A DNA stretch of 64,000 nt. Source: Sipunculus nudus. Its lineage: Eukaryota; Annelida; Sipuncula; Golfingiida; Sipunculidae. This document shows positions 19,332 through 63,672 of the stretch, piece by piece. The stretch spans positions 43,490,659-43,554,658 of the forward strand of contig CM049313.1 in NCBI GenBank assembly GCA_026874595.1, given 5' to 3'. Within the stretch, counting starts at the first letter, position 1. Every line of letters starts with the position of its first letter. The notes beneath the pieces were generated by a model. That model was given only the letters and a program-made list of their open reading frames with translations. It was not told the origin of the DNA and ran no database searches. Both the position numbers and the translations under genes were made by a program.

Positions 19332-19364
<33 letters not shown>

Positions 19365-22183: not shown

Positions 22184-22203
22184 ATGTCTTTCAGCTTCTG
22201 ATC
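22184..22203 (-). CDS. TLE/gro: Groucho/TLE co-repressor, 20-nt microexon (SEAERH)
   Basis: On the minus strand a strong acceptor ('tttcttctgtttttcag') is followed by 20 nt and a consensus donor ('gtgagtac'). Joined to the single G left by the previous exon it reads Gly-Ser-Glu-Ala-Glu-Arg-His, extending KEEK to KEEKGSEAERH. This resembles the vertebrate TLE continuation 'KHHDAEHHRDRE'. It enters in phase 1 and leaves in phase 0, so adding it keeps the frame. The fit of strand, position, phase, both splice sites and residues supports it, but seven residues are too few for proof from homology alone. The next exon was not found in the 22 kb to its left. Confidence 0.75.
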
Positions 22204-22274
22204 CTGAAAAACAGAAGAAACGGTGGTTAGCAAATATGTCTGTATGACAATGCTAGGTTACACATTGAATTTAC

Positions 22275-22665
22275 AGTGACACCTCAACTGACAACCACCC
22301 TGCCATCATGACCACCCCTCTGAGAGGACCACTTTTTTGTCTAGGACTAATGTAAGTCATTGTGAAAGCCTCCCACTAACATGACCACCAAACTAACATG
22401 ACCACCCCACTAACACGACCACCCCACTAACATGACCACCCCACTAACACGACCAACCCCTAAAACGACCATCCCTTAACACAACCACCCCACTAACACG
22501 ATCATCCCACTAACACAACCACTCCACTACACGGCCATCCCACTGGCATGACCATCCCACTGACACAACCACCCCACTAACACGGCCACCCAACATGACC
22601 ACTCGACTAACAGGACCACCCGACTAACAGGACCTCCCCAATATAAGGACCACCTCACTTACATG
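22275..22665. repeat. 17-bp minisatellite (ACCACCCCACTAACACG) in a GACCACC-type element
   Basis: About 20 units of ACCACCCCACTAACACG with frequent substitutions lie 70 bp upstream of the Groucho microexon in transcription order. The left flank 'acctcaactgacaaccaccctg' resembles 'acctcacctcacaaccacccc' at 45695, so both probably derive from the same element family. The strand is G-rich on the transcribed pre-mRNA. Confidence 0.85.
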
Positions 22666-23065
22666 TGTTATGAAACAAATGTACCTTTTCAGTTTCAGTC
22701 TTTATAACTGTGAAACATATTATTCTTTAGAAAGTTTTAAACCATTCTTTGTTGATTTTAAATGACTCATATTGGCACTTCAATCATCTGATGCTCATAT
22801 TTTGCCATAATTTCCATGGTCCGACCATGGCAAATAACGGTGGTATACAGTATATAACAGGTGAGCGGGAACTGTAATTACAAGAACCCTACATTCCTAA
22901 TGTTTCATGTTTATCTGGGGCTAATACCTGTAATGAAACTGAACATTCAATCCATGACAAAAAGGGAAGATCAGGGGAAAAACAGATGTCCTAAAGAAGA
23001 ATTCAAACTCTGACCTGTCCCCTGGAACAAACAGCTAACCACACATAATTAAGCAACAATAACGC

Positions 23066-23471
23066 AGGGCTCGACATTTACTTTTGAAAGGGCTTGCCCC
23101 ATTGGGCAAGTAACTTCTAGCTTTTACTTGCAGTACAAGAATTTTTACTTGTCCTACAAAATCAGTGATCATAGCCACAACAATAAAGTGTGGTACACAT
23201 GATTATTTTGCCACATTTAACATGTTCACATGTTTGTCTGTTAACAGTATTTCTCTGTAGTATTTGAAGAAACAGGTAATTTAAGATACAGGTATTTCAA
23301 TAAGATTTCATTTCTCCAAGAAAGAAACTGGATAACAGACCTTTGGTTAAAGGTTTATGTTGGATTCACTTGCCCAGTTGGGCAGTAGGAGCCTAATTTG
23401 GGTTGCCCTACCACCATTTTCTGGAACTTTTACTTGCCCTGGACAAGCAGTCAACTTATAATCTCAAGCCC
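23066..23471. mobile_element. hAT-like miniature element (AGGGCTCGA ends)
   Basis: The left end is AGGGCTCGACATTTAC and the right end, read on the other strand, is GGGCTTGAGATTATAA. Candidate 8-bp target-site duplications are AATAACGC (23058-23065) and AATAACCG (23472-23479), matching at six of eight positions. Inside are repeated 'cttgcccnnttgggcaagt' palindromic segments near 23090-23105 and 23370-23384. The length of 406 bp and absence of coding sequence fit a MITE. Short inverted ends with 8-bp duplications are typical of hAT. Confidence 0.6.
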
Positions 23472-24887
23472 AATAACCGATACAGAGAGCCTCTCTGAGG
23501 GGATGACCCTGGATCTGCACATACATCTGACAGGCTTTTTTTATTATCAATTTCCAGGAACCCTAACAATTCTGCTCAAAATCCCCAGCTTACAAACAAG
23601 CAAACAAGCAAACAGACTAAAATTATAAAACACCATTCTCCTTGGTGGAAGTAATAAACATTGAACAGGTTGTAAAAGTATATCAGTAACTTAAGTAATA
23701 CTATATCACAGCTCTTAACAGACATCTGCCAGCTGGGAAACAAGATTGTCATTTAAATATGGCCATCCTTAGTAAGAAAAACAAGTTTGGGAGCAGTCTA
23801 TACTAGCCTATATACAATATATATTCCAGGAACGGCACAGTGTAACCTTTCTCCTCTGACCTTTGACCAGGACATTTTTTGCACATGGATCAAATGAAGC
23901 TGCCACAGGCTGATGACTGTGTCCCTCCCCTATACAGCAGAGAGCAGGCAGACAAAAACATAACATCCTGCATTAAAACACCAAATGGACAGTTTATCAC
24001 TGGGAATGGCCCATATAAAATGACTAGATTCACTTATTATTGCGGTGAAATGGCCCTGGTTCTAAATGAAAGAGAAATATGCAGCAAGAGGTGTAATAAA
24101 CAAGGGGACAATATCGTGGGGCCTGTGTAGCTGGGACACACAGTAGAATGGCCGATCACAACATCACAAAGATCCCTGCCTCCCAGATGGGAGTTTAAGG
24201 CAGCTATTAAAATAAACTCTGAATGGTACATGGAACATATCAGTTTGGTATGGGCCATATATTATAAACCCTTGAGCAACAAACTTAAATCACGCATTCC
24301 AACATGGTGATATTCCAAGATAATAACAGGGCTTGATTTATTACAGCCTAGCAATTAATATTAATAACATCCATCAACTGTTGATAATTAAAAAACTCAT
24401 GTTTTATGACCCTCAGCTCTAGAGTACCTGTGCAATGTCTTAACACTTTAACCATGATTTATATGGCTGAGATACACTCCAGTAAAGTTCCATTCTTGAC
24501 TGACAAATAAAACTAGTTCAAATGAATAAATGTGATACCATTAACGTTTGACTCTGCCCCGCAGACCCTTCAATGTAGTACAAGCTCAAGCACATTACAT
24601 GTTGCCAAATACAAGGATCAAATGTACTGTCCTTGATATAATGAAAATTAATATGCACAGCTATGAAAACATTTATGACTAAGAGAATTAAACAAGAAAT
24701 TTGGTGTCCAATTCTGTGACACAACATACAGACTGCACAAAAAGATCAATGAATAAGACAATATGTCTTGAGCAGAAAAAAAAAGTAATAATGTTTGCTC
24801 ATTTAACTAATTGTGCAAAGCAGATCTGAGGTCTCATGTCATCATGGTATAGACAGATCATGTGACAGGAAGTCATGAGACACCTAC
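23472..24887. other. Intronic stretch; 23870-24290 complex and possibly conserved
   Basis: 23870-24290 has balanced composition and an 83-codon plus-strand frame (23879-24130) that matches no family I know; it has no splice context on the plus strand. It may be a noncoding regulatory segment. The rest is unremarkable. Confidence 0.35.
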
Positions 24888-25062
24888 CTTTTTCTTCCTT
24901 CACTGTATGAAGACTGGGTGCCAGGGCTCCCATCCCTGGGAACAAGAAGCCTGTTGTACTGGAAGGGGGCAGACCTGGGGGGTGGAGACCCCCGGGGTGG
25001 GGTGGCATTGGTATTGGAGGTGCCCCTGGGGTGTGTGGTGGTAGATGGGCCTGCATCTGGTG
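24888..25062 (-). CDS. TLE/gro: Groucho/TLE co-repressor, glycine/proline-rich (GP) exon
   Basis: This 175-nt minus-strand exon (58 codons plus one base) begins HQMQAHLPPHTPGAPP and contains MPPHPGGLHPPGLPP, the counterpart of the vertebrate TLE 'TPHPSGLQPPGIPP' block, then ends LHTVKEEK plus one G. The GP region links the Q domain to the CcN motif and helps recruit histone deacetylase in the family. The rest (SSTTGFLFPGMGALAPS) is diverged, as expected for a disordered linker, but matches the vertebrate order of a small hydrophobic/serine stretch followed by a charged KDDK/KEEK segment. The acceptor reads 'tggtttgtgttccag' and the donor 'gtaggtg'; the exon enters in phase 0 and leaves in phase 1. 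The region is unusually GC-rich for the window. The opposite strand is also open here but has no family signature. Confidence 0.93.
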
Positions 25063-26145
25063 CTGGAACACAAACCAAACTACATAAGAACATGACAAAG
25101 GCTCAAGCAGGAGAAAAGAATGAAGATCTAACTTACAGATCAATATACATCATCCTAAAACAAATATTTTTCTGAATGTGTTAATGTGTTATCTTAATGT
25201 TGTATTTGTTTTTAGGAAAGGACTGCCCACAGCCTTTAGGTGGCACTGTCTGCAGAATGACAATGCAAATCATCACATGAAAAGATTGATATGTTAACAT
25301 TTTGTCTTCTGATGAATATATGTATAGGAGATTACATGCAGACAACTCGTTACAGGTGTTAAGACATTATAGGGTGAACACGTGCTATAGCAGTCAGTCA
25401 TGAAATCAAACAGTGTGTCTAGCTGTTATGGTGAGGTGTTTGCCCACAAGGAGGAGGTCCGGCTCAGGCTTTTTCGTTTTGGTCAAATGTCCCAGATTCA
25501 GATGCTAGTTATATTCACATATACAAATCTTTATTTACCTGTATCCTTAGATTCTACTTGCATATTACAAGTTTTATTAGTTATATTAGAAGTGTTATTT
25601 TTCATTACAAGATCTAAGCTGACTGTGGTGACATATTTTTTTTCTTGATTGGCACAAGGCCTTTAACAATAATATTTAAATAGTATGTGTTAAAATCACT
25701 ATCATCAGAAAAATCATTAAATATTTATATACATACAGACTAGTAAGCCACCTTTTATCTGAACACCATTTATCTGAAAAATCATCCAAAATTCAAAACT
25801 GACAACCAATTTTCATTATTTATCCAAAATCCTAACAATAAAAAATACATGAACCTAGAATAAAAATGACTTATTTCAAGCACATGTAAAAAGATTAGCA
25901 GTGATGCATAATGAAGATTAATTAGTGCTAATGTTGGTTATGGGCCAACTTCATTCATTTGCATTAATTGATAATTGTTAGTAACCAATACTTGGTGGTC
26001 ATGGTGAATTCTGATGCAATTTCATGATAACTGTTTATCTGAATGGTCATATATCCGTATAAAAACCTTTTCCGCAACATATACATTTATATAACCCCTG
26101 CCCCCAGGTTTTGGCTGAATGACCCTCTATTGAATATACATATAC

Positions 26146-26190
<45 letters not shown>

Positions 26191-27270
26191 CTCAGAACCT
26201 ATCAACTTTCTCTCCATTCTGAAACGTTTCACATCTGGGTTTTACTACGTGTCAGACATTCAAAAACTCCTGTCAAACTGGAGTAGTTGTAACACACCCA
26301 TGCCTTTATTGACATTAAATGTAATAGATCTCAAGTGTTACTGATAAATGTTTGAGCAGGCAAACATAAAAGAACTAATCATATTTGACAGCTGGACTGG
26401 CACTGTGTATCAGGGAAACCCAAAGCCGTGACTCGCTTCACTGTAATAATAAACAAGTATCTAATAATTATCAGCACAGGCGCTACATTTTTTATGTTTA
26501 CTTTGGCATTTTCTAGTACTTATATGTCTGTACTAGGCCTGATTGTAACCAGAATACTGTACAAACACAGATAAGTTGATACAGATTTCACTACTTTTTA
26601 ACCTAGCTTGTGAACATTTAGCTAACTATTAAGATAATCATAATGGTATGAAATTATAAAATAAGCCCATGCCTGTATGCATGAATATACAGCATAATGA
26701 TCACTGAATTCACACATGCATGAGCCTACTTGTATAAGAAATGGGAATAAGAGTTTTCAAAAAGGCCTCATCTGAAAATACTAATTTAAAGATATTTTGA
26801 TTGGTTGAAAGTTATCTTGGTACATATGTTGAAAAAATATCTTGGTATATATACATTCTTACTGGTTGAAAGTTATCTAGGTATAATTTTTCAAGCAGAT
26901 ATAAAATGAACATATTTTTAAGGATATTTTTACTCACTCGCATATTTTTTTTTCAAATAAAATGCTGCTTACACAGGCAAGAATATGTTCATCATCCATG
27001 CATACAGCAATGTACATGGTCTTTTAACTGATCAAAAGTTTTGACATGCTGGAGGCAGCACTATTTATCATATTGATTTTGGTCACCTTTTTGTTCATGA
27101 TTATTTAAATATGTGATAACAATAAACAATCAAATTGATAATGGAGCACTAAAAAGTCTTCCCAATAAAAGACTAATTTACACAGTAGACCTAAGATTAC
27201 AGTGTACAAGATGGCAGCTGCACCTGGTATTATCACAACAGCTAAGAATCATCACATTAACCAAACTAGA
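25063..27270. other. Intronic stretch with a TA microsatellite
   Basis: Mostly unique AT-rich sequence. A (TACA)n/(TA)n microsatellite lies at about 26136-26188. 26380-26490 is more complex ('gccgtgactcgcttcactg', 'aataattatcagc'). Open frames at 25400-25648 and 26047-26232 are not supported as genes. Confidence 0.45.
26136..26188. repeat. TA-rich microsatellite
   Basis: 'atacatatacatatacatata' passes into a pure (TA) run of about 15 dinucleotides and then 'tgtatatata'. Confidence 0.9.
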
Positions 27271-28980
27271 TGTGTCGGAACGACACAAATGCCCCCCGCC
27301 TTGGGCAAATTAGAAACATTTGTAAAATTTGGAAAATTTTTTAAGTTCAGGAGGTGTCGTATGGTCAAAAGTAGGTCAACAAGGGCAAAATGCAAACTCG
27401 ATCTGTAACGGGTCATTATCAAGCAACAAACCAAAAATCATGCCAGTATATGCAGGCATTGTGAAAAAAAGTCCATACATGTGCATTTTCCATAAAAATT
27501 TCTGTCATTCATGAAATTTTCTATGTTTAGGAGCCGTAAAACAATGAAAAGTAGGTCAACCGGGATGAAACGCAAACTCGATCTGTAACTGTCATTATCT
27601 GCCCACACAAAAAAAATCAGGGTGGTATCTGCAGGCATTGAGGAAAAAAAGTCAGTACATATGCATTTGTTATGAAAATTTATATTTTTCATGAAACTTT
27701 CTATGTTCAGGAGCAGTCAAATGGTCAAAAGTAGGTCAACTGAGACAAAACAAGAACTCGATCTGTAACTGGTCATTATCTGCCCACACACCAAAAATCA
27801 GGCCTGTATCTGCAGGCACTGCGAAAAAAAGTCCATACATGTGCACCTTTTATGAAATTTTCTATGTTAGAGCACCGTCAAACGGTCAATTATAGGTCAA
27901 CTAGGACAAAACGTGAACCTGATCTGTAACTGGTCATTATCTGCCCACACACCAAAAATCAGGCCAATATCTGCAGGTATTGTGAAGAAAAGTCTGTACA
28001 AGTGTATTTGTCATGAAAATATATATATTTTACATGAAATTTTCTATGTTCAGGAGCCGTAAAACAGTCAAAAGTAGGTCAACTGGGACGAAATGCGAAC
28101 TCCATCTGTAACTGGTCAATATCTGCCTACACACCAAAAATCAGGCCAATATCTGCAGGCATTGCGAAAAAAAGTCCGTACATGTGTATTTGTCATGAAA
28201 TTTCATATTTTTCATGAAATTTTCTTTGTTCAGGAGCCGTAAAACGATCAAAAGTAGGTCAACCGGGACGAAAGCGAACTCAATCTGTAACTGGTCTATA
28301 TCTGCCAACACACCAAAAATTAGGCCAATATCTGCAGGCATTGCGAAAAAAAGTCTGTACATGAGTATCTGTCATGAATATTTTTATTTTTCATGAAAAC
28401 TTCTAAGTTTAGGAGCCGTAAAACGGTCAAAAGTAGGTCAACCGGGACGAAACGTGAACTCGATCTGTAACTGGTCTATAACTGTCCACACACCAAAAAT
28501 CAGGCCAATATCTGCAGGCACTGCGAAAAAAAGTCCGTACATGTGTATCTGTCATGAATATTTCTATTTTTCATGAAAATTTCTAAGTTTAGGAGCCGTA
28601 AAACGGTCAAAAGTAGGTCAACCGGGACAAAATGCGAACTCGATCTGTAACTGGTCTATATCTGTTCACACAAACTAAAAATCAGGCCAATATCTGCAGG
28701 CACTGTGAAAAAAAGTCCGTACATGTGTATTTGTCATGAAATTTCATATTTTTCATGAAATTTTCTATGTTCAGGAGCCGTAAAACGGTCAAAAGTAGGT
28801 CAACCGGGACGAAACGCGAACTTGATCTGTAACTGGTCTATATCTGCCCACACACCAAAAATCAGGCCAATATCTGCAGGCATCGCGAAAAAAAGTCCGT
28901 ACAACTGTTTGATTTCGGAATGACGGAAGGACGGAAGAACGGAATGATGGACATGGGTAAAACTATATGCCCCGGCCACT
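27271..28980. repeat. Tandem-cored mobile element with nine about 180-bp units
   Basis: The left end has the hairpin TGTGTCG-gaa-CGACACA (27271-27287) followed by 'aaatgccccccgcc'. Nine units follow, each with 'GTCAAAAGTAGGTCAACCGG', 'GAACTCGATCTGTAACTGGT', 'AATATCTGCAGGCATTGCG' and a 'TTTTCATGAAATTTTC' segment. They are marked by 'aggtcaac' near 27371, 27550, 27729, 27890, 28071, 28253, 28432, 28612 and 28794. The right end is 'gacggaaggacggaagaacgg' then 'actatatgccccggccact'. This has the same plan as the element at 1921-3785. Open frames inside (27252-27692, 28141-28396) are repeat by-products. Confidence 0.9.
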
Positions 28981-31226: not shown

Positions 31227-31301
31227 CCCGATGATAGCATTCAGTTCTGTCATTGTAACCTGTTTTGCCCTCTCCACTGCTGCTGCTACCTGTTGTTGGT
31301 G
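31227..31301 (-). CDS. TLE/gro: Groucho/TLE co-repressor, end of Q domain ([14 protein letters not shown]...LNAIIG)
   Basis: This 75-nt minus-strand exon encodes 25 residues: [20 protein letters not shown] followed by NAIIG. It corresponds to about residues 101-125 of human TLE1 (HQQQVAQAVERAKQ...) and closes the glutamine-rich tetramerisation domain. Differences I can see against the vertebrate sequence are Ala for Gln after QVA, and Thr for Ala in VTMTEL. The acceptor reads 'gttattttccag', the donor 'gtgagt', and both boundaries are phase 0. Vertebrate genes carry extra glutamines after AIIG; here the next exon starts HQMQ instead. Leaving AIIG the chain passes into the flexible glycine/proline-rich region. 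Confidence 0.97.
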
Positions 31302-33590: not shown

Positions 33591-33705
33591 TTTAGGCAGT
33601 CTGGACCCCCCCCTTTTTCCCACACCTGCAGACCTCTTCTTTAGGTTTTGTTGTTAGTACTCCTGGGCTGGACCCCTCCTTTCATAAATCCTGGATCTGC
33701 CCACT
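33591..33705. mobile_element. hAT-like element fragment (AAATCCTGGATCTGCCC end)
   Basis: The stretch 'cctgggctggacccctcctt' then 'aaatcctggatctgccca' matches 52255-52311. Read on the other strand the end is TGGGCAGATCCAGGATTT, resembling the CAGGGGCGGATCCAGGA ends common in hAT miniature elements of marine invertebrates. Left boundary not resolved. Confidence 0.45.
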
Positions 33706-36358: not shown

Positions 36359-36421
36359 CTCTTGGGAAAGGAATGGAATGACTTGTGCAATAATGGCATT
36401 CAACCGCTTGGCTATCTCTGT
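36359..36421 (-). CDS. TLE/gro: Groucho/TLE co-repressor, Q-domain exon (TEIAKRLN...IPFLSQE)
   Basis: This 63-nt minus-strand exon encodes 21 residues, beginning TEIAKRLNAIIAQ and ending VIPFLSQE. It is nearly identical to the TLE/Groucho Q-domain segment at about residues 80-100 of human TLE1; the visible change is Ala-Ile where vertebrates have Thr-Ile-Cys. The acceptor reads 'tatttttcatttcag' and the donor 'gtcagttg', both phase 0, so it joins the preceding EMHKQ exon without disturbing the frame. The leucines and isoleucines (RLNAII, VIPFL) supply hydrophobic heptad positions of the coiled coil through which Groucho tetramerises. A 27.2 kb intron separates it from the exon at 63628, so this is where the gene is most stretched inside the window. 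The run of 21 family-specific residues leaves little room for another identity. Confidence 0.97.
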
Positions 36422-40250: not shown

Positions 40251-42295
40251 TTTATGGAACCTCCAAGTTAAACGAATTCTGGTGACAAAGCACACGTTCA
40301 TGTACAGTAATATTAAACGTACTATAATGTATCCTTTATGACAAGTGTAATATATTCCTTTCTTCTGTTAATCAAGATAAAGAAAGAAATATGTACAAAT
40401 TTATCATGCTTTCTGTGAATCTAAATTAAAAAAATGATTAATTGAATTAATTAAAATTTATCATGGGTTTCAAAACTTTTAATCTTTAATTATTTGTTAT
40501 TATTTAGTTTTTGTGATACATTTATCTTCCAATCGATCTCCATTTATATTTGTATTTCAGCGTGATCTGAAATCAGGATGAATGTAAGTTATTCTTTCAA
40601 TTACTTTTCATCACCACATTAACAACATGGACTTTCTTTTTGCAGTCCAGACTGCATTAAAATAATCAGACTCCCCCTCATTTATAACGGAGCTAAATCT
40701 GCCTTAGTTAATTCCATTTAATATTACCACCTGTGACACACTGATCACTCACGCCAGGCCACACTGACGACACATCAAGACTAAGTGAACATGAAAATGC
40801 CTTTAATCAAGCAATGTTTAAACTGGACCAAACTTCTTTCTGCGTGTTTAACTATGAGCTTGAGTCTTTTTCTGACGGGGATTAATACCTTCCAACAAAT
40901 GTGATATACTGCAGCCAAATTAAGAACAATGGTATGGATCGGAAACACTATTTGTGATATTACCTTTTTTTTTATGTCTCTGTGTAAATGGAGCCTCTGA
41001 TTTTGTAAATGTGTCCGCGCTTTTTGTCTATTATCTGTGTCTGTTATTTGCAAAAGATCGATATATTGTTGCTCCCAGTTTGAAAGAGCACCGTATCTCG
41101 CTTCATCAAAATGCTGAACATCGGCTATTGGCTCTGACTTTTGTCAGCCAGGTTTGTTCAATGATGTATAAGCCATTACAGACAGGCCTGCACTTTTGGA
41201 ATACACGTCAAGCCTGTAATGCATGTTTCTTTCGCACATGAAATGTGCGCCCACTGGGAAATAACCTGGGCTAACATATGGCATTAAATCCTACACCCAG
41301 GGCAATAATAAGTGGCTCTGATTGCATCAGGCAATAATAAGAACATAACATGCAAGTCGGCAGTCAGGCAGAGTTCCAGCTGTAGTAAGCTTCAAATGGG
41401 ATCTAACTCAATAAGCCCACTAGGGCAAAAGCTCCACTCTTAGGGCTGTGTGGTCTAATCCCTGTTTTGCATGTATGATGGGCCATCAGCCCTGATTGAT
41501 ATGGCCAGCAGAGACCCCCATGCCACCTACGGGGACTCTCAGATTAGACGCAAATGGTGGCAGAATAACTCCCCAAAATCTCCTACCTCAACTGCCAGGA
41601 AGGGCAAAGTAGGGCGCACCCTGCGCAAGGGCCTATGAATGAGAATGAGACCTGCCCCGGAAATGTGCTGTCATTAACTGCACAAGGCACCGGATTGGTC
41701 CTGTAAAGATCTTTGGAAAAGACCGGCTGCCGTAGAACAGATCCAGAGGAAGAAGGAGATAGGAGAGTCTGGGTGGAGGCAATGCCTTTCTGACAGATGC
41801 TCTAAGCAAGTTTTCAACTTCTCTGGGTCCTGCTTAATTAACTCTTTCAAAACCTTGAACAGCCCAGAATACTTTGGAATACATTCATGATTATAGTAAA
41901 AGCTGTTAAATAACAAAGATTAAAATGGAATATATGAAATATTTTACCACATGAATAAAGGAGATTTATAAAATCTAGTAACCCAAGGGATACCTATACA
42001 GATGCTCATTTGAATTCCAAAGGACTTTTATGAAAAATAATTGAAATTTTAATTAAAACAATTTTCATATCCAGGAAAAAAATGGAATATGTGATAAATA
42101 CAGCCATCTGAATCAAAAGTACATCCTGAAGAAGTAACATAAGAATGATTAATATTGCCACAAAACTAAAGGGGATATACCATGAAACAGATGATGACTT
42201 GAATGTTCTGAATGAACCAAATGTCCCGTGGAATACATGATAAATTTTACACTTTTCAGTATAAAACATATCAGCCGTTCATATTATATAAAAAA
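40251..42295. other. Intronic stretch; 40860-41920 is GC-richer and non-repetitive
   Basis: 40860-41920 stands out as complex sequence with balanced composition, including the twelve-base word GGCAATAATAAG twice (41301-41312 and 41330-41341) and 'tttcgcacatgaaatgtgcgcc' near 41231. Open frames here (40781-41053 minus, 40954-41241 plus, 41674-41916 minus) overlap or lack splice context and match nothing I know. 41930-42290 is AT-rich. A possible plus-strand 23-nt exon-like unit at 40561-40583 is discussed in the findings. Confidence 0.4.
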
Positions 42296-44210
42296 ACAAG
42301 GGACCTATGGGTCACTATGCTCAGCTGAAGTTGACCTTGAAGGTAAAAATCTAAAATAATATCAAATGGAGATGCTGTGTAAGAGGAAGAGGTAATAAAG
42401 GCCATGATTGGTTTATATGATTGGTTTGTATTGATGAGCAAGAAATTGTTGCAAATAATATTTTGTGACCTAACCATGTGTTTCCTAATGTTGAAATTGA
42501 AGCATGTGAGCAGTTTGTGAACAAATGATCTGTAATATTACCACGATCATTAGTTGGCTTTTTGATTAACTGTTGACATTTCAGTAGTTTACACATTTGT
42601 TCAACTGAATCTATTTTTTGTATAATATATATTATTAAATATAAATGTATTTTTTTTAATGAAATTTATACAGTTGAAATATAACTAATTAACATCATAA
42701 AACAGGGCAAACAAAGCCTGATCTCAAATTCTGCTGAGGCAGGAAAATAATGAACAAATGTTTGTATTAAATCCTCATTTTTTTATTACATCAATTTTTT
42801 TTATTATAAGTTTATATTTCTATACATTTCCAATATAACATATATATCTGAATATAAAAGTTGATTCATAATTCTTAATTGCATCATCATAAATCTCAAT
42901 CTTGTCAGATAACACCACATCATGCATACAAATGTTTATTTATTTTTTACCACAAAAATATATCTTTTAAATCTGCAAAACAATAAATATCTTGAAATAA
43001 TACTTGATTTAGTTTTCACAATTTTTAAATGTGTCTTTATTTATCCATTATGTGCTTCATATTTTAAAAAATTTAAGCATACTGATCGGTTCAATTATAT
43101 TTGTTAAAATCATTTAAAAGAAAATTGATTTCTTTAAAAATGCCACATTACACAACATTGCATCTTCTGGATTACACCTTGAATTACCTTTTCAAGGAAA
43201 GTTTTTGCATATCGGAGTGGAAACAGCATTACAATGAAGGAGATACAGTGAAAACAATAACAATTACTGCATAACACTTGGTGGGTTGGGTTTGTGGGGG
43301 GGGGGGGGGGGTGATTGGGATGGTGATATGAGAATAACTGTACACCTGTCACAGCAGGGGATCTCCCCCAGTGACTGTAACAAATCAGAAACCCTGGCAT
43401 AGCTGACTTCCATTGACCTGGAGTGGGACCCTGCATCTGTAATCTGTAATCACAGCAAATGACTACAACAGAGCCTCAAGAAAAAATCAAGAACTAGCCT
43501 AATTTTCAAGCTTTTATTTTCAACTTTCAGATTTAAACAAATTAAATATTTATGTTTACATGCTGTGAAAATTAAATCAATGGTACTAACAGAAAAAAAA
43601 CGTGCCATGGTCAAAGTTGGGCAAAATTTAAGGTACTGATTTTATTTTTATGCGATTAACTTAAAAAATTTACAAAATTCAGATCTAATTTTGGGTAAAA
43701 AATTGAATCTTAATTAAACATAGTAATATACTTGGGAAAATAGACTCTAGTTTCAAAATTTTTCATGTTAAGTGAGTAAATATTTTTCCTGATTTTTTAC
43801 AAAGTCCATTATGTTTGGGCCCATAACTTAAAGAATTTATACTTAACAGACTTAATTTCTGGCATGTACATAGAAACTATATAGAGGAATATTTATGGTA
43901 AATATGAGGAAAAACATATGAGTGGTTTTGATATTAGGCAGTCCTGAAGTGTGAAAATAGGTTTTTAATAAAAAATTGAGGTTTTTCCTTAATTTCTCAA
44001 AGGAACGAAGTCGCAAAGACCCAGTTTTCGGCTTGGTAGGAGATCTTGGGGACATCTAACATTATGCTGAATTTTGGATTCCTAGGTCTTATGGTTTCAA
44101 AACGTGCCACATCTACGGACGGACGGACGGACGGACGGACGGACAGACGGACGGACGACGGACAATGGACCACGACTATAGCTCAGATGACTTATAGTCA
44201 GCTGAGCTAA
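42296..44210 (+). mobile_element. 1.9 kb non-autonomous hairpin-ended element, copy 2
   Basis: Direct-orientation near-duplicate of 18328-20239, differing by scattered substitutions and small indels. It ends with a longer pure (GGAC)n run (about 44115-44145), the same hairpin and CTAA at 44210. The homopolymer G run is 16 nt here (43296-43311) against 31 in copy 1. Flanking sequences differ on both sides, so this is an independent insertion rather than part of a larger duplication. No coding sequence; frames at 43134-43436 and 43852-44055 are artefacts shared with copy 1. Confidence 0.85.
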
Positions 44211-45689
44211 TAATAGTGAAAACACCTATATATTTTTTAGTATACTTGTTTTATAATGCAATGTCATGTCCCATGCATATCAACTTTCTAGACATGGCAC
44301 TGCTAAGGGATCACTCCTGGGTAGCAGATTAAATTAATGTTTTTCCCTAAAACTAAAGAAAGAATTAAAACATATGTAATTACCAATTAAATGCCACATG
44401 TATAGAAAGACAGCTCAGCAATGATTGTTGCTGTGAACTAAGTACAGTGGGGGGAGTGCAGGCAGGTCAGAAATCCTCTCAGTTTCATGCAAATCCCACA
44501 AAGCAGGACAACTCAGCCTCGTATAATTAATAGACTGGCCCCCAAGATCCAACTAATCACAGGGGCTGAAATCATTCACCAATTTTACATGCCAGTAGGG
44601 TCTTCATATAACATGTGTCATAATTGCAACTGGTAAACTGCAAACACACACTTTTCCAAGATAATAGCCCTTTTTTGAGGAAAGGTACCCATTCCCCTGA
44701 TGCTTAAATCTTTACTGATTTATAGTCCAAAGAGGACTGAGCAAGAACTTTTTCTTGTCTGTTTTGAGACTTAACTGGTTTCATTTTTTTGGTCTATCAG
44801 GTCCATAACCACCCAGTTTTCAAACCCTTACCTGAAATTACATGAATGGGCTTCTGAGTTTTTGGCAATTTCAGCCCCTGACAAATACCAGTGGACACTG
44901 ATAGATGAGGGGGACAAGGAAGGAAAACAACAGAGATCAAAGAATCACACTGGTGTGAATGATAATGCAGTGAATGATGATGCAAGGTTTGAAATTCCAA
45001 GTGATCCACATGCTCAATGCTTATCTTTCCATGTCCTGGCCTGATAATTTTGACAATTTAATCCCTTGACTGTTCTGTCAAATATTAGATTTTGGAAAAA
45101 TGTCGGACTCTCTTAATAATGACATTTCAGCTGGTACCTCAGTCAGTTTTCAATGGATATTTACCAAATTTCAATGGTGATTACAAAGTTTGACCTTTAG
45201 ATTTGAATTATAAATACGAAGATGTATGACTTAAAAAATTCTGAGTAGAGTATAAAGTTCTTGATGTCAACATCAAGTGATCCTCGGCAGCCCTCCTGAC
45301 ACTGAAGTGTTCAGCAGTTGTAACAATGGGTTTAAAAAATATATGCCCCTATTCTGGTCTGGTGTACACTGGGATATTGTATAATTTGTCATTTACTAAG
45401 TCAGCCGAGTCACTGAAAGATATATTAACAAACACATCCTTCTTCTTCAGTTTTACGTTTAAAAGCATTGTTATCTTGAACAAAATTTCTCTAATGATTC
45501 TGATGATATACTTCAAAGACAGCTCTAAGGTGAGTGGCGTTTGAACCAAAGCAGAGGAGTACAAACTTCTGAAAATATCTGTAAAAGTATGTGTTTTATG
45601 TAAATATGTCAGAAGTTGAACATTCTCTTAGACCAGTAACCTATTATAAAGTGAATGGTAACTTAAGGTTAACCGTAATCAAGGTACCG
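44211..45689. other. Intronic stretch, nothing recognised
   Basis: Unique sequence. Overlapping frames on opposite strands at 44797-45044 and 45326-45564 are not supported as genes. Confidence 0.4.
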
Positions 45690-52130: not shown

Positions 52131-52311
52131 ACAGTGGGGGGGGGGGGGGGGGTGCAGTCTGGATCTCCTGCTTTTGAACTTCAAAACAATTTTTTTCAGG
52201 GTTTTTTAAGCAAATTTTCCCTCTCTGGATCAGGGGACTTTTTTTTAGGTTTTCTTTAGAGTTCCTGGGTTGGACCCTCCACTTTCCAAAATCCTGGATG
52301 CCCCCTGAACT
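52131..52311. mobile_element. hAT-like miniature element with expanded G run
   Basis: It begins CAGT plus a G run (52135-52152) then 'tgcagtctggatctcctgc'. It ends 'aaaatcctggatgccccctg', which on the other strand reads CAGGGGGCATCCAGGATTTT. The inverted ends resemble the CAGGGG...GGATCCAGGA termini of hAT miniature elements, and the right part matches 33640-33705. No clear target-site duplication was found. Confidence 0.55.
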
Positions 52312-53995: not shown

Positions 53996-54180
53996 TTCTT
54001 CCCAATATCCCGAAAGTTTCACTGAGATGGTTCAGTAGTTTTTGAGTAATCCTGACCCCCTATTAACTTTTCTAGCCTATATCTAGAAATTTTCACTGAA
54101 ACAGTTCAGTAGTTTTTGTGTAATGCTGATGACAGACAGAAAAATAAACAAATGCACAAACAGACAGAAAAATACAAGCA
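53996..54180. mobile_element. Decayed repeat fragment with GTTCAGTAGTTTTTG units and GACAGACAGA tail
   Basis: Two copies of 'tttcactgnnanngttcagtagttttt' about 80 bp apart are followed by 'gctgatgacagacagaaaaat' and a second 'aacagacagaaaaat'. The plan (short tandem core plus GACAGACAG tail) matches other elements in the window. Confidence 0.5.
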
Positions 54181-57100
54181 ATAACAATTAAAACATTATC
54201 CTCTGATTAACAGCAACTTTTATAAGCATGATGACAACAGAAGCATTGATATAAAAATGCACGAAAATCAAAGTATCATAAACATGAAGACAGTGGAATA
54301 GAATGAAAACAAAATCAGCAAAAATTCTTAAGTTCACACTTGATGCAACTGGAGGTAAATCTATGAATCTTGGCTATCTAATTTACAGTTCATATCTATG
54401 GATTTATATTTCTGTTTTCAATTAATCTCAGGAAGTTTTGCTGCTATGATTAAAATGGCAGCTGTGAAGGATATCAACGATGATAAAAAGTCCAGGTTTT
54501 TATACATCCATGAAAAGTTCAAAAGTAGAAGCCATTCTGGTGTCTGATTGCAGAACAGATGATTGTAATACCCTTTTGGATGAAGACACAGATGTAAAAT
54601 AACTTCTAAAGCAAAAGACACTGGCTGAAAGTTAAACAATTTGCTTTTCTTAATGATAACTTCTATGTCTCTTATAGTTGGCTTTTAATAAAAATAAGGT
54701 CCTTCAGTATCATTGGTTGAATGGTATTTGATGAAATTGATACCAGAGAAATAACCTTATTGATTTTATTTCATATGAATCATTATACACAGGAGAAAAG
54801 TACATGGTATGCACTTTGTCTTTATATTAAAGTGGCCTTTTCCAATATTTGATGTCTCTTAAATAAAGATTATCCCTTGAACCTTTCATAAAAGTAGATC
54901 ATAAAAAGGAGATCCCATCGCACATAGGCTATTTATCTTGTTTAAAGGACATCTGGTGGCAAGTCAGGAGAACCAGAGTTTTGCAAAGGGCGTATTGCAA
55001 CTATTGACCTTCCAACTTCCGCACATGTGCACCCACACCTTAGGTTATTTGGGCTATCCATTTGTCGACAAAGGTAAACAAGCTCTAACTTCTGTCCAAC
55101 ACAGAGCCATTATAAAAACTTTCAGACAAGGAATTACCTAAAGTTCACTTCTATGTACACAAGGTAAGCCAGAAATCACATCAAGTCTATTAACGGTTGG
55201 TGAATTGATGGCTTTAAATGTATGTAAAGTTTGTGATGGTGTTGATTAATTCATTTATTTACTTGTTTTCCAGGGAGATTGCACTAATGCATTATCAGCG
55301 GATGTACATAACGAGGGTATCAAAAAGAACTCATTTCGTTTTCATGCATTTGGACCTTGAAGCAGATCCAGGACAATTTCGCTTCAGATCACCCCTCCCT
55401 ATCCCAAATGTTCACTTCATCACAAACTGGATCAAGGCTTCCCTATTAAGCTGGCTGGTCAAGTGGCCTATGCAGTTGTCCATAAAGACATTAACTGGTA
55501 TTTGAATCCAAGAACAGGAGCCTCCAAAGGAAATTTCTTTATCACTTTTTCTGAAACAAGACTGAATGTTTGGTCTAGGTCTGGGTAAATGCTTTCTAAC
55601 AAGTGCTCTTTTCTTTGTCATAGTATCAAAACAATTAAAATTCTTATATCGCACATGAATATACCCTATTAAGTCAAAATTAAAGGGATCCAAAACAACA
55701 TGTTGCCTCTGAGGTTCTAAATGTGCTAGCTTTACTGGGTTATATGGATTAACTTTAAACTGAAATTTTCTGCACATGATCATATCACATGATCCTATCA
55801 GTGAACCAAAATCAGCTGACGTGAGCAACATGTATTTCTTGGATGAGAAGCATAGAAACAAATTAGTTTCTTCTGAATGTCAATACAGCTGTTAGACATT
55901 CCAATTAAAATCCCATTTACACATACCATAAAATTAATTACTGGCAAAGAGGTGACAGTTTACGACAATACAAAATGAAAATTTCAATTCCATCTCCACA
56001 ATTCAGAGACTGCTGGGTGATCCACGAGGTTGTCCATTCATGGGTGTATTTGGGTTGCATGGCATTAATTAACAAAATAAATCATTAAGGAAATATACAG
56101 AATCTGACCAGCTTGTAAGACACCCAGCAAGCTGCACACTGCATTAGAATATATAAACACCATATCTGTTTGGAAGGGGTAAGGATACATCAATTGAAAA
56201 CATTGTCTGTAAACATTTGTATTTGCTGTGGCGACACAGTGCAAACAGGGGCCCCCCATTGTCAATATTATCTAAGTCAACAACTAAGGCCAGGGAGTTC
56301 TCTTCCCTGGGCTTAATGGCCACACAAAGGACTGAACACACTCTGTATTGATCAGAATAACTAGCACTTGATGTAGCAGAAATATTAGACCCTGCCAGCA
56401 CTGATGCGCTGTATGAATTATGGCCAAGGATTCCATGATAACCGTAATAACACTTGATCGATTGTGCCGTATGGGTGCAATTCTGCGCACTCTCTTTGAA
56501 AATGACATTTCCTGCCGATATTTCCTCAGCTATCGTGCAAATGGATCACACCAGGAGGAATATTAAAGTAAAAACTGGCAAACCAACCCACACAGATAAG
56601 AAGAAATTTAGAGTTTTTCGCAGGAAAAATGCTGACCTGCTGAACCTCATATCGACCAGCTTTCTGTCATGCCACCTAACACCCCTCAGGCCAAGTGGGC
56701 ATGACCTGTGCTGTCTATCATTTTCCTTTAGCCCCGCCTCCTCACACCCACTGGGCCAATGAGGGCAGACCTGCTGTCTAGGACCTGGAGGCCTAACAGA
56801 CAATGAGCTAGAGTCTGTGATGGAAGCACACATGCATATCCTATTATGCCTGCGTGGAATTTCAAACAATGTCAAACACACGGGCTGGTAGCCAGGGGTC
56901 CAGAAAATTGATTGGTTTCAGTTTAGTAGTGAAGCATGGAAATCACCAAAAGCCTTATTCCTGCAGCCGGTATGGGAAGTTCATTATTTGCAGCCGGGTA
57001 CTTGGTGTATATTTCACTTTCCTAGCTCCCAACAGATGTTACTAATACCTGGCACCAACCTCGCTCAGCCAGTTTACTTTGCAAATTGAGGCAATGGGAG

Positions 57101-58433
57101 AAATCTGATTTGGACCGGTGATAAAAGAGCTCTTTTACAGGTTCAGGGTGGTCACTGAACAACCAGTCCTTGGGCAGGTTCTTTACATGATCCCCCTTCA
57201 CAAGGGCTGTATCTGATATCACCTCTACTCCCTCCTACCAACTTCCCCTACAAGCTGGTTTCCTGTAATCCAAAATCTGTACCATGTACTGGTACAAACA
57301 TCAATACTACAAAGGGAGACCTTGCTATAAGGATTTTCCTTGTATGCCACAGGAAGCCTTTCTCTTTAACACAGGGGCAAAGGTCAATGCCATGGTTACC
57401 ATTATGATGTCATAATAGGTTAATGATGTCATTGTGATGTCACAGTTAAATTACATCAGAGCCTCAATCACACCATATGTTACCGAAATATAGAAAGAAA
57501 TGTAACCTAAACTGTCACTGTGGCATATCTACATATAAAACACAGACCCCATGACATCATTTGGTAAATAATATAAAACACAGACCCAATGACATAAACT
57601 GGTAAGGTAAATACTGAATAAAGCTCCTTGTACCTTTGATTCCTGCCAAAATGTCAGGTCTGCACATTTGATTTCAAATTTATAAGAAATCTGAGTCTGA
57701 AATAGTAAAGGCAGAATTTCAAGTACCAATGTCTGTATGTGCTCCACATACTGGTGGAGGTATGGGCTTTCTAGGGTGCTCTCTATTATCATTATAAACT
57801 CCTGGAGCTATTTAGATTGATGTGGTATATTTTTTATATTGCTTGCCCGAAAGGTAAAAAAAAAATTTCATGGAACTGATCAGTTGGATGGGCCCCTGAG
57901 GAATGTACAAATATAACAGATAAAATTAGATAGACAGATACAACATGTATGACCTTAAAGAAAGGTGAACTCCACACACTGAATAACTGGGGGATGTAAA
58001 AGGTCAAAAGCGTGATGCCATGCCTGCAGCATGTTACCATCAATCGTCTGTCTGATCGCTATCAGAATTCGCGCTGAAGAGAAGCACCCAGTTCATACAG
58101 ACCTGCTCTCATCTACTCAGCGCTTATAACCACCAGTTGCTATCTTTAGAATATCTAATACTACTGACGAGTCTATCCAAAATTCATAAGATGAGGCTGC
58201 CCCCCCCCCTCCTGTTTTCACTATCCCCCTAAATATTCTTACATGAAACCTGGCCTGAAGGGGCAAGTTGTCAAAATATGAAGCCCTCCATTTGTAGCCA
58301 ATGTCCTAATATGACCAGACAAGACATGTTGTAGCTCAAGTTAAATAGAAGGTGACACCAGAAGGGTTTATTTGTGCATCATAAGCGATTAATGATAGCA
58401 GAATATCAATGGTAAAACACTGTTGTGCAGTGC
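54181..58433. other. Intronic stretch, unique; CRE-like cluster near 57405
   Basis: No exon recognised. The longest open frame of the window, 149 codons on the minus strand (55412-55861), has no domain, signal or splice-site support. 54930-55140 and 56440-57060 are more complex than average. A small 43-bp direct duplication ('aaaacacagaccc'...) lies at about 57536-57615. A C run lies at 58200-58210. Confidence 0.4.
57405..57559. promoter_or_regulatory. Cluster of four TGATGTCA (CRE/ATF-like) sites
   Basis: TGATGTCA occurs at 57405-57412, 57424-57431 and 57435-57442, and inverted (TGACATCA) at 57552-57559. The word is one base from the canonical TGACGTCA. Function is inference. Confidence 0.3.
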
Positions 58434-58678
58434 AGATTTAGAGGGGGTGTGGTGGGCATGCAACCCATCTTATTCTACCTATAAAATCAGGGTAAAAATA
58501 TGATTAATAGTGAAAACAACACCAGGTATTGTGTCTTTCACCATTTTCTCCCGTACATGTGAGAGTTGCGTATAAAGTTGGCTGGCACTCCCAGCATACT
58601 TGTTAACCTTTCAAGGATACTTGTTAACCCCCCCCCCCCCCCTTGTTTCTTTTTCCTTTTCTAAAATCCTGTGTCTGT
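58434..58678. mobile_element. Probable hAT-like miniature element (GGATTTAGAGGGGG-type)
   Basis: It starts 'gtgcagatttagagggggtg' and ends with a 16-C run (58629-58642 region) followed by 'ttgtttctttttccttttct' and 'aaaatcctgtgtctg'. This is the usual architecture of CAG-GGATTTAGGGGGG...CCCCC-AAATCC-CTG elements. Target-site duplication not resolved. Confidence 0.4.
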
Positions 58679-60038
58679 CTCTGTGTGTGAAAGTTTAACA
58701 AACCATCAGGAAACCTTTGGCAATAGTGTAATGAGTGACTAATAGTGAAAGAGGAACCTCTTCCAGAGGAACCTCTTCTGAGGAAAATCTAAAATGCACA
58801 GGTTAAATCTGGGTGATATGTATCAGTTTACTTTTTGCTCCCTCTAAAACCTGGAGTAAATGAATACCATTTGATGACTGGCAGAATGAAAATAATTCTT
58901 CAATGCCTTCAGCACAGATTGAGATAGAGTGACAAGGAAAGCTCTTGTAAGTTTTCCAAGAAGACCAAAGTTGTATGTTGACTTGAGTGCTGGTAAAAAC
59001 AAAATTAATATGGATCTTAGCAAGTGAATTCTTAAAAAAATTCCTGGCATAAAGAGTTTACTTGTACATCCTGGCATTGGCTGGATCAGTTAAGTAGGCA
59101 GAGTTTGATATGGTAATGACATCTCATTTGCACATGATTTAACATGACAGCTATATCTGTTGGTGACAGACGTTACTGTGTTTTAGAAAAGTGGTTATGT
59201 AATACTTGCTTTTCACACTGGCTTCAGGAACAACATGTGGGTCCCCACAATTCAAAATTCATACTGATAAACTGTTTTGGTTAAATGTTATCTTTTGCAC
59301 CCATCTAAAAACCCTGATTCTATTTTCTTCCTACCAAGCTATCAGATCTTGCACATTCACCATCAGGGCGGACAACAGTGTCTACTTACATATAGTGGTT
59401 ATTTAACCAGATAAACATCAGAGATGCTACTGAATTCAATCAAACTCCGGGTTCAGATCCACTTTTAATATTTGTATCTATCTGCGATCACTTCCCTGAG
59501 GCCTCGATGATAACAAATGTAATCAGTATTTATGTAACAGGATGCTGCTAATTCACTGGCACTTGATTTGAGGTTATTCCAAGAACAGAACATAATTCAA
59601 CATTTTGTTTTATTTGATAGGCAGCTGCTTCATTGTATCTTCATGATTTCTATCAGTCTAGATTAGCATCTGGGAAATATGTATCCTTAATGTCATTTTC
59701 TGCAAAATTACCAGTAATTAACATTCACAATCCTTAAACACCATGCCCATGTCCATACATGAAAAAACATTCTGTTTAGTACATACACAGTGCTGAAACC
59801 TGTGTTTTTTGTATATGCACGAAACGTTAAAGAATAATGTGTAAGTTATCTAAAGAACCATATGCTTAAAAATGGACAAACCTATTTGAAGCACATGTAT
59901 TCAGACAGACCAGCATGACACTTAAGGGTTTTTAGCATGACGTAGCATGTGCCTCTGTATACCCCTTTTTCTGGGTTGTGACATAACACTGTGGGTGTCA
60001 GGAGCATAAGACAATGGATTTAAGCAGAACACTATAGA
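58679..60038. other. Intronic stretch, nothing certain
   Basis: Unique. 59400-59720 is of balanced composition with several TAAT/GATTA cores and could be a noncoding regulatory segment; evidence is weak. Frames at 58844-59077 and 59206-59406 are not supported. Confidence 0.35.
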
Positions 60039-60390
60039 TTTTAGCAAAGGGTTGTTAAGTTTTTCCCAGTGTGGTATTTACCAGCTGATAAATACCGATA
60101 TTTACCGCCTTTGGAAAAACCTCTCAAAGTGGGAAAATGGGAAAAACCTCTAATAATCTTTTAAAAGGAGAGACCAGCAGATATCTGACTGAATTATCTC
60201 ACACACATACACATCCACACATAAATATATATATATATATATACCGGTAACCCCCAAGATTAACTCGGCCTTGATTAGGTTAACATGCTTGATTACTTTT
60301 GTCAGCTCACCTACTAAAGTTTATGTTGCAATTAATTGGTAATTAAGTAATGCACTAGTATGAGTTGTATAAATATTGCACACACACACC

Positions 60391-60436
<46 letters not shown>

Positions 60437-60680
60437 TCACATGTATATCACATATATATATATACACACACACACATAATATAATTTCAACATGCAACAT
60501 TAAACAGAATTAATTAACTATACATCATTATACTCTCTCAAAAATTTTGATCAGACATTTTCCCCAGTAATTCCCAGTACTGACCAGTTTTCCCCAGTTA
60601 TTCCCAATTAATCCTGGGTTTTTCCCACTGTCCGGGAAAACCTAATTTTTCCCGGGAAAAATAACAACCCTGTTTTAGCA
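60039..60680. mobile_element. Complete hAT-type miniature element with perfect 8-bp TSD
   Basis: TTTTAGCA flanks the element exactly on both sides (60039-60046 and 60673-60680). The element (60047-60672, 626 bp) begins AAGGGTTGTTAAGTTTTTCC and its other end reads CAGGGTTGTTATTTTTCCC on the minus strand, so the terminal inverted repeats match over most of 18 bp. Subterminal 'cccgggaaaa' and 'gtttttcccactg' motifs recur near both ends. It contains two TA/CA microsatellites (about 60220-60242 and 60380-60475) and no coding sequence. An 8-bp duplication and CAGGG ends are hAT hallmarks. Confidence 0.85.
60380..60476. repeat. CA/TA compound microsatellite
   Basis: 'cacacacacccacacacaca' runs into (TA)n of about 15 dinucleotides, then a second TA run and 'cacacacacacat'. 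It lies inside the hAT-like element. Confidence 0.9.
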
Positions 60681-61094
60681 TTACAGTTAATTTTTTTCAG
60701 CAGTCAAACACCCATGTGTTTCAGTTATTCACCATGAATCTAACAAATCACTTTGAAGTGTTGCGTAACAATTTACTGTTTTTGGTATAAACTATAATGA
60801 TCTTAGTGTACTTTTTCGTTTTAACATAACAGTGGATAATTTAAGCATACCACTGACAGGCTTCAGTGCAACTCTGCACTAGGCTAGCACTTATTGGTTT
60901 TAGCAAGACAATGTAAACTAGGATTTAACATTACAATTATACTGTTTAGCCGTATCAGTTTTGCAGCACACTTAATGAACTTAAGAATAAACAGAGATAT
61001 GTGCACATTCATATAGATACAGACATGTAGACAGGGTTAGGCAATATACTGCATGATACAAAGAAATACAGATCATATAAAGGAAAAAACTCTC

Positions 61095-61605
61095 ATAACA
61101 AGAGCACTACAAATGGTGCATATAAAGCCTGTCACATATCTTGTGACCTCTGACTTCATTAAATATACGAGAATTTTTCTGAGAATGTAATTTAGGTGAG
61201 AAACTACTGGTTAATATTCATAATGAGTTTCATGAAAATCCATCAGAATTTTGGTAGATCATCACAGTGCTGCCAAAGTCTTGTGAACTCTGACCTCATT
61301 AAATTTGCATGGGTTCTGCAGGAAATCAAACTTAGGCGAGATATTATAATGATTAATATTTCTGATGAGTTTTATCAAATCCATCATATTCATGGTACAT
61401 TATTGAGGCAAAGAAGCCTGGTGACCTCTGACCTATGCTTGGACTTTGCTAATAATGGAACTTGTATGAGATAATATAATGTTAAGTAGTAATGGTGAGC
61501 TTCGTGACAATCCATTGGTAAGTTATTGGGCAGATAGTAGATTGACAAACAAACAGGCGGAAGGTGGGTATACCATAATACATCCCGTCATAGAGGGGCA
61601 TATAA
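61095..61605. mobile_element. Tandem-cored non-autonomous element, three about 140-bp units
   Basis: It begins 'acaagagcactacaaatggt' and contains three diverged units, each with 'cttgtgacctctgacttcatt' and 'aatattnatnatgagtttcat'-like text (near 61137, 61281, 61420). It ends 'aaacaggcggaaggtgggta' then 'ccataatacatcccgtcata'. The plus-strand frames 61196-61661 are read through this repeat and are not genes. Confidence 0.65.
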
Positions 61606-63627
61606 AAAACAGATTTCCAAGATGCCAGCACAGAGCTCTGATTTACACAGTGCATCGTTGACAGCAGACAATTCTGCCTTTTTCCCTACTTAAGCTAATG
61701 ATCAGGGTTTTGCCCATTCACAAACTAGTACAGCACAAAAGAACATTTATTTAGGGTCATTTTTTCAGCCTAACTAAGGGAGTGTGAAAACTAAGGCTCG
61801 TACATATTATGAACATGGTGTGAACAGGTTTTGGGGCATAGTACACATGTAGCACTTGGGGTCCCTGATACAATGGTATCGTTTTTTCTTCCTCCATCTA
61901 GTGAAGTAGTTGCTGGTGTTGTTTGGCTGGTGCTGGCCTCCTGCAGCATCATTGTAGGCCCCCCCTTGGTCTGTTCTGGGGCTATGAACCCAGTAAACCA
62001 GGAGGGCTGGTGAAAAAACAGTTCAGCATTCCTTGGTAGATAATGAACAGACTGCCCAAACATACAGCCAGCTTTGATTGAACATTTGCTACTGGTGATA
62101 TACAGAAGATATTACTGAAAAACCCAGCGTGATCAGCCCTGCGCCAGTTACTAGCATAACACCCCTCCAGGTCAGCCACAATATGACAGCTGACTGAGGC
62201 AGGCCTCAGGAACAGAGCACTGATCAGAGATCAGCTAGGAAACAGGAACCATTACATGCACACCAGATTCCCTGTTTAAATGACCAGGTTCACCTGCAAA
62301 CATTTGTTTACAAACACATCTACAGATAGCATTATGAGAAGACAGTCCCTCACTTAGCGTAAGGCTACACTACAATTTACAATCACTGCGGCCCCTTTTT
62401 TAATTCCCCTCTGGGACTACGATGCCAGACTTGTTCTGCTCACGAGCAGGAGCTAAAAACACTGTCTGCTGCCGATTCCGTCCTCCAAAATGTTGCTGCT
62501 TGCGGTGAAATGCTGAGGAAGCTGTGTTATTTAAGACCCAATTTCCGTTAATCCCTCTTGACAGCCAACCATTAAATATATGGCTAGTGGCATGTTTACA
62601 TTTTCAACACCAAAGCCCCCTCAAAACAGGCTGTAACAATTTGGTATATGAGATGAATCCTCTGACCATTAATAACCACATTAGTTTTCTCCAATCAGTG
62701 CCAAACTACTATAATGTGTTGAGGAAACATACTCATGTTTCAGATCGGATGCAGGTGCCCACAAAGTGCTTGGCTATTTTTTTTTCCCCATGACACCTGA
62801 TAAGGAGCACTTGTTACAGAGAGACCAACATGGCTGCCCTAACATACAGATCCAATTAGGTATAATTAGATGAGAGTCCCCTGTACAGCTGTCGACACTT
62901 GATCTGATGGTTGCACAGCATTAATGTATTTGTACTGTTGTGTTATGTCTAGTAAAACATGGCCACCCTACAAGTGCTCTAAGTTACTCAATGTACAGTT
63001 GTATTCATTTTATTGAATAGCACCGTTTTGGCTTGCTTTGTGAACAGCAAAAAGGTGGCATATAGTAGATTCAAAACTATTAACACTGTGTGACATAAGA
63101 GTTATTGTTTTATGGTCATTTCTGTGTGTGTTCGTAAGATATATAAAAAGAACAAATTCATAGCATTTAGTGAAATGTGACATGCAGGTTGATCATGTGA
63201 TCTTCCAAAGTGATGACAAGGATTGTGTTTTTGGTCACATGTTTGCTGACAGGTAATATATGCATACATGTTTATCAGTCTTTTTACCTCTGGTTTTAAT
63301 AAATGGTTGGACTCATTTGAAACAAGAATGTTTGTTGAGAGTGTGTACAGAATGAAGATCGCAAATAAAGCTCTTTCATATTCCCATGGTGTTAAGTTTT
63401 GTATGAAACTTTTCCATACGTGAGTATGGTCACATGACCTTCAGAACGACCAAATCACATTACCCACAAAAATATTCTTATTGGCTTATAAGATCACATT
63501 AAGAATATCATTTCTTCAAATTACTCTCTTATGGGCCTAACAACATTCTTCCCGCCTTGTCCTACAGGTAATGCTGAAACCATTAGTTGGCTAAATCTGG
63601 ATCTTGATGATAACTTTAAGCACTTAC
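61606..63627. other. Intronic stretch between the tandem element and the EMHKQ exon
   Basis: 62330-62600 is complex, GC-richer sequence ('gcggccccttttttaattcc', 'tgctcacgagcaggagc') and could hold a regulatory element. The remainder is unique with no recognised feature. Confidence 0.4.
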
Positions 63628-63672
63628 CTGTTTATGCATCTCTACATTTAGGCCATAGGACATCTCATAGTA
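63628..63672 (-). CDS. TLE/gro: Groucho/TLE co-repressor, Q-domain exon (YYEMSYGLNVEMHKQ)
   Basis: Groucho/TLE is a nuclear co-repressor that has no DNA-binding activity of its own and is recruited by Hes, Runx, TCF/LEF, Engrailed and similar factors. This 45-nt exon reads YYEMSYGLNVEMHKQ on the minus strand. It matches the Q-domain segment at about residues 65-79 of human TLE1 (numbering from memory), with Val in place of Ile as the only change I can recall. The acceptor side reads 'tttttcattgcag' and the donor 'gtaagtg'. Both boundaries are phase 0, as in vertebrate TLE genes. The Q domain forms the coiled-coil tetramer needed for repression. This is the most upstream exon in the window; earlier exons, including the start codon, are not found between here and the right edge. 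Identification is close to certain because the frame continues into two further diagnostic exons. Confidence 0.96.

Follow-up and report, generated by a model that had tools for sequence, protein, structure and literature searches.

The stretch of DNA analysed here, called the window, comprises 64,000 nucleotides of the sipunculan annelid Sipunculus nudus (assembly GCA_026874595.1, 1.43 Gb; contig CM049313.1, hereafter C8, positions 43490659-43554658) and contains five middle exons of a Groucho/TLE co-repressor gene, referred to as gene B. Gene B and a second copy, gene A, were modelled by reading the flanking DNA and placing splice borders by hand and by script. The modelled exons are numbered 2-22 in both genes, and the window holds exons 4-8 of B, listed here from 5′ to 3′ of the gene (positions without a contig prefix are those of the window):

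63628..63672, minus strand: exon 4, Q domain; AG/GT borders, 15 codons in phase, with the identical 15 residues in gene A
36359..36421, minus strand: exon 5, Q domain; AG/GT borders, in phase, within the TLE_N match of the joined exons
31227..31301, minus strand: exon 6, Q domain; AG/GT borders, in phase, with a separate TLE_N match of its own
24888..25062, minus strand: exon 7, end of the Q domain and GP region; AG/GT borders, in phase, resembling the gene A exon
22184..22203, minus strand: exon 8, GP region; 20 nucleotides (nt), AG/GT borders, maintaining the frame from exon 7 to exon 9

Joined, the five exons give 378 nt that form a single open frame of 126 codons, several stops being present in the other two frames. 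The joined protein matches the Pfam family TLE_N with an E-value (E) of 7.8e-35 over profile positions 47-115 of 118, and matches the human TLE1 chains 4om3 (E 6.3e-40) and 4om2 (E 6.9e-40). An initial annotation of the window, made from the letters alone, had proposed five minus-strand exons at these positions that encode the second half of the Groucho/TLE tetramerisation domain in the family's order, strand and phase and that join into one open stretch of 126 codons; the presence of Groucho/TLE exons is confirmed, and each of these particulars agrees with the results above. Its description of a “gene fragment” is apt only in the sense that the window cuts the gene, as B itself was modelled from the Q domain to the end of the WD40 domain. 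Two families typical of molluscs, the group named in that annotation, gave no match when searched for (haemocyanin and egg lysin), a negative that is not proof of absence.

The model of gene B (exons 2-22) runs on the minus strand from C8:43571559 down to C8:43441226, a span of 130 kb that holds 701 codons and ends, beyond the WD40 domain, in a stop codon. The nearest exons beyond the window are exon 3 (C8:43562850-43562787), 8.1 kb outside the right edge, and exon 9 (C8:43489076-43488972), 1.6 kb outside the left edge, and with a shift of one codon at the end of exon 13 every internal border is AG/GT. The whole protein matches TLE_N with E 1.8e-65 (219.1 bits, cut-off 32) and Pfam WD40 in six stretches. 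The WD40 exon matches show 69-92% identity to a TLE probe sequence, to which exons 7-14 show, in order, a partial likeness in the GP, CcN and SP regions. In the Groucho family, the Q domain forms tetramers and binds TCF, and the WD40 propeller, a domain unusually conserved across animals, binds repressors on DNA through their eh1 and WRPW motifs. From this resemblance, we infer that gene B is a long-form Groucho/TLE whose Q domain would tetramerise and bind TCF and whose propeller would bind eh1/WRPW motifs. A short, AES-like gene was ruled out by the WD40 exons present in both A and B. The window is the middle of a minus-strand co-repressor gene of at least 130 kb, which by itself is an ordinary and apparently intact Groucho/TLE gene.

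Gene A lies on the same contig, on the plus strand, where its exons 2-22 extend from C8:43368903 to C8:43418143 (49 kb, 703 codons). The two genes have the same exon layout and are arranged tail to tail with their last exons 23 kb apart. A genome search with TLE_N gave seven matches, all of them on C8. Four belong to B on the minus strand, and the other three, about 130-200 kb away on the plus strand, belong to A. The six matches of a genome search with the window protein were likewise all in A or B; a third Groucho was ruled out on both counts. WD40 gave 23 matches genome-wide. A and B account for 17; the remaining six, of which five are on other contigs and one is at C8:10.08 Mb, are 21-30% identical and are taken as generic WD40 proteins. 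The WD40 domain of A, in the form that carries the first of its two exons 17 (exon 17a, see below), aligns with human TLE1 (1gxr) over 301 of 301 residues (E 3.3e-195). Both A and B are long-form Groucho genes, and B has in A an intact, convergent paralogue 23 kb off. The genes differ in length although they share the same exons, intron 9-10 measuring 18,961 nt in B versus 536 nt in A (trimmed).

The proteins of A and B are identical at 603 of 693 aligned residues and different at 90. Divergence at synonymous sites is uneven along the genes: 11 of the 21 exons carry 0.71-1.12 synonymous differences per site and four (exons 6, 8, 14, and 17) carry 0.44-0.55, whereas six are low (0.34 in exon 12, 0.11 in 13, 0.17 in 18, 0.16 in 19, 0.13 in 21, and 0.33 in 22). 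At fourfold sites, 16 of 96 differ in the six low exons versus 81 of 116 in the other fifteen (Fisher 2.7e-15), and in a permutation over all 21 exons the observed heterogeneity was reached in 0 of 20000 rounds. The low exons form adjoining pairs (12-13, 18-19, and 21-22). Exons 4, 5, 16, and 20 are about equally invariant in protein and yet diverge by 0.73-0.93 at synonymous sites, so that protein constraint does not explain the unevenness.

The introns of the two genes were also compared. Matches between corresponding introns occur in 5 of 20 intron pairs: intron 4-5, which is treated with the noncoding sequence below; intron 8-9, where the match consists of copies of a dispersed repeat; the intron before exon 13, where the likeness covers 28 nt; and the introns on both sides of exon 18, where 135 and 231 nt of intron align at 73%. 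At exons 19, 21, and 22 no intron likeness rose above the threshold, apart from the side of exon 18. A further 21 matches link different introns of A and B, many of them belonging to the same dispersed repeat. The exon 18 region, with both flanking introns alike (A, C8:43413980-43414125; B, C8:43448442-43448297), is a candidate conversion tract.

Because synonymous divergence is uneven, short stretches of A and B have probably been made alike by gene conversion, which would keep these stretches similar while the remainder diverges. Gene conversion fits the pattern best, probably in the form of several events that took place at different times between the two inverted genes. The main rival, which we consider unlikely, is that the low-divergence exons are kept by constraint at the nucleotide level, such as splicing signals or hidden regulatory sequence. 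The locus does hold conserved noncoding stretches, and the likeness flanking exon 18 might be a further example. However, such constraint would have to spare the similarly protein-invariant exons 4, 5, 16, and 20 and to fall on exons that adjoin in pairs. In a quite different account there is a single gene, represented twice as two haplotypes or through an assembly duplication. This would suit the shared layout of A and B as inverted neighbours on a single contig and the closeness of six exons at synonymous sites, but it is extremely improbable given the 90 differing residues and the introns, most of which have nothing in common; as haplotypes of one gene, A and B are ruled out by synonymous differences of at least 0.71 per site in 11 of 21 exons.

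Several points weigh against the reading of two intact, partly converted genes and have to be set beside it. The six low exons were selected after the data had been seen, a choice on which the permutation test alone does not depend. Nor does the divergence fall into two clean peaks: values of 0.44-0.55 occur in four exons, and two of the six “low” exons reach 0.33-0.34. In a test of 80-nt flanks, exons 12, 13, 18, and 21 exceeded the 99th percentile of random pairs, but so did the flanks of unconverted exons (6, 8, 10, and others), and the test therefore does not single out conversion. Exon 8 of A is one of 12 candidates that fit the pattern. Lastly, no exon 1 with a start codon was found for B in the stretch read, which, together with introns that make B far longer (130 kb versus 49 kb), is what might be expected if B were a decaying copy and A the working Groucho. 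This is highly improbable, since B has a 701-codon open frame with intact borders, protein changes in the Q-domain exons and most WD40 exons are far rarer than synonymous ones, and exon 17 of B is nearer to human TLE1 (28 of 34 residues) than either version in A (23 and 20). B as a pseudogene was ruled out by the open frame.

Gene A differs from B in having two exons 17, 17a (C8:43411520-43411621) and 17b (C8:43412140-43412241), which lie in tandem, are 102 nt each, are of phase 0-0, and are both open with AG/GT borders. They encode two versions of one WD repeat, corresponding to TLE1 residues 528-561 in the alignment to 1gxr, where the numbering assumes that the 1gxr chain ends at residue 770. 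The two versions are identical at 17 of 34 residues, with 0.32 nonsynonymous (pN) and 0.65 synonymous (pS) differences per site. The single exon 17 of B shares 23 of 34 residues with 17a and 20 of 34 with 17b, and human TLE1 shares 28, 23, and 20 of 34 with B exon 17, 17a, and 17b, respectively. Scored as single repeats against Pfam WD40, all three fall below the cut-off of 27 bits (18.5 for B exon 17, 15.6 for 17a, and 18.6 for 17b). Residues Y532, R534, E550, and W557-D558 are retained in all three, and roles are attributed to Y532 and E550 in TLE1. According to a preprint, TLE1 with R534 mutated no longer recognises any of the WRPW and eh1 motifs tested (PMC13308096).

When A and B were scanned for sequences resembling each of their exons, the one clear case of duplication was exon 17 of A, and no second exon 17 was found in B. 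Candidates had to have AG/GT borders and to differ by no more than 6 nt in length, and under these settings exons 11 and 13 of A missed their true partners in B; exon 8 was left out as too short, and the last exon, having no donor, was unable to match itself. Being tandem, homologous, equal in phase, and equivalent to the same protein segment, 17a and 17b have the geometry of a mutually exclusive exon pair. Because of this anatomy, gene A probably lets splicing choose between the two forms of this WD repeat, and the likeliest use is probably one or the other per transcript, although the frame does not force the choice. An alternative that we rate at somewhat less than even odds is that 17a or 17b is dead or rarely used, or that both are included together. 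The length of each exon is divisible by three, so that the reading frame permits both, and both are further from TLE1 than B exon 17 is. On the other hand, both are open and have intact borders, a length of exactly 102 nt, and phase 0-0; pN (0.32) is roughly half as large as pS (0.65); and the residues named above are kept in both. In a literature search made largely without subscription papers, no paper was listed that describes tandem or mutually exclusive WD-repeat exons in a Groucho gene, nor one that describes a pair of Groucho genes in molluscs.

Apart from the five exons, the tests made on the window revealed no further gene, and the rest reads as intron. No Rfam family was found in the window at gathering thresholds, no Pfam match at E 0.01 was obtained for 10 chosen open reading frames (ORFs) among the 71 stop-to-stop ORFs of at least 80 residues, and no WD40 exons were found inside the window with the TLE probe sequence. 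Within these searches, the statement of the initial annotation that everything else is intron holds, and its guess that regulatory candidates may lie in the introns has gained support from the first of two noncoding stretches in intron 4-5:

56831..56916, minus strand: conserved noncoding element, intron 4-5; 79% identical to C8:43376198-43376284 in gene A
56220..56337, minus strand: possible second conserved stretch (weak), intron 4-5; 66% identical to intron 4-5 of A (E 1.6e-6), in the same order

The first element, 86-87 nt long, occurs in the same intron of A and B, and these are its only two places in the genome at the search sensitivity used. A hidden exon was ruled out, as the frame that is open in B has stops in A. 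The element is a candidate regulatory sequence that may act in transcription or splicing. For the stretch at 56220-56337, the genome search returned only the query itself and no second copy, and unrelated intron pairs matched as strongly (by chance or through repeats), which leaves this stretch weak. A scan for bacterial promoters and terminators near the elements gave 3 versus a shuffle mean of 2.1 and 2 versus 0.8, and has no bearing in an animal.

The window also contains several repeats. A dispersed repeat of about 1.9 kb is found at 18326-20245 and 42294-44216, with segments 89-98% alike, and related pieces occur in other introns of A and B. A minisatellite with a 32-nt unit (18.7 copies, 95% matches) lies at 14185-14783, and an array with a 180-nt unit (8.8 copies, 80% matches) at 27334-28903.

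Taken as a whole, the best explanation, to which we give a probability of about 0.93, is that the window is the middle of gene B, that B has a convergent, intact paralogue A, that conversion has probably acted between the two, and that exon 17 probably gives A a splicing choice. A more specific proposal is offered tentatively: A may produce two Grouchos that differ only in the swapped WD repeat by the motif-binding pore, which would retune the set of repressors they serve, with conversion between A and B homogenising neighbouring propeller exons as exon 17 diverges. Should these features around the window gene prove right, a swappable WD repeat beside the motif-binding site would be a natural experiment on the choice of partners by a co-repressor. 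The two convergent, partly homogenised genes would illustrate how, in an old duplicate of a developmental hub, certain exons can stay uniform and the remainder can diverge freely. These surroundings, the partly homogenised convergent pair and the candidate swappable WD repeat, somewhat raise the interest of an otherwise ordinary window gene.

Among known systems, human TLE1 is similar in the half of the Q domain encoded in the window, which aligns over 93 residues (4om2/4om3), and in the WD40 domain of A along its full length (1gxr; further human TLE1 WD40 structures are 2ce8, 2ce9, and 5mwj). It differs in that the GP, CcN, and SP regions are much diverged here, as judged against a TLE probe sequence, and in that two convergent copies are present on one chromosome. 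The short form AES/TLE5/GRG5, which consists of Q and GP only (PMC2997355), shares the regions seen in the window, whereas A and B differ from it by a full WD40 domain. Nematostella, too, has two Groucho loci, whose proteins are similar although their silent sites and introns differ (PMC2655272); those loci are on two scaffolds and differ by one residue, whereas A and B are tail to tail on one contig, are identical at 603 of 693 residues, and diverge unevenly at synonymous sites. The Dlx genes of the annelid Capitella teleta form an inverted tail-to-tail pair in which mosaic gene conversion extends as far as an intron (PMC3199776). Both cases are tail-to-tail pairs of developmental genes, but Dlx belongs to another family, and in A and B 6 of 21 exons are affected, the rest being far diverged.

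Alternative exons in this family have a precedent in human TLE4-T, where a testis cassette exon adds 13 residues to the Q domain and changes repression (PMC2762042). Exons 17a and 17b of A are comparable as putative alternative Groucho/TLE exons but duplicate a whole WD repeat in the partner-binding propeller. In fission yeast, the paralogous co-repressors Tup11 and Tup12 owe their functional difference to WD40 divergence (PMC2882346); that difference is divided between two genes, whereas in A it would lie in a choice of exons within one gene.

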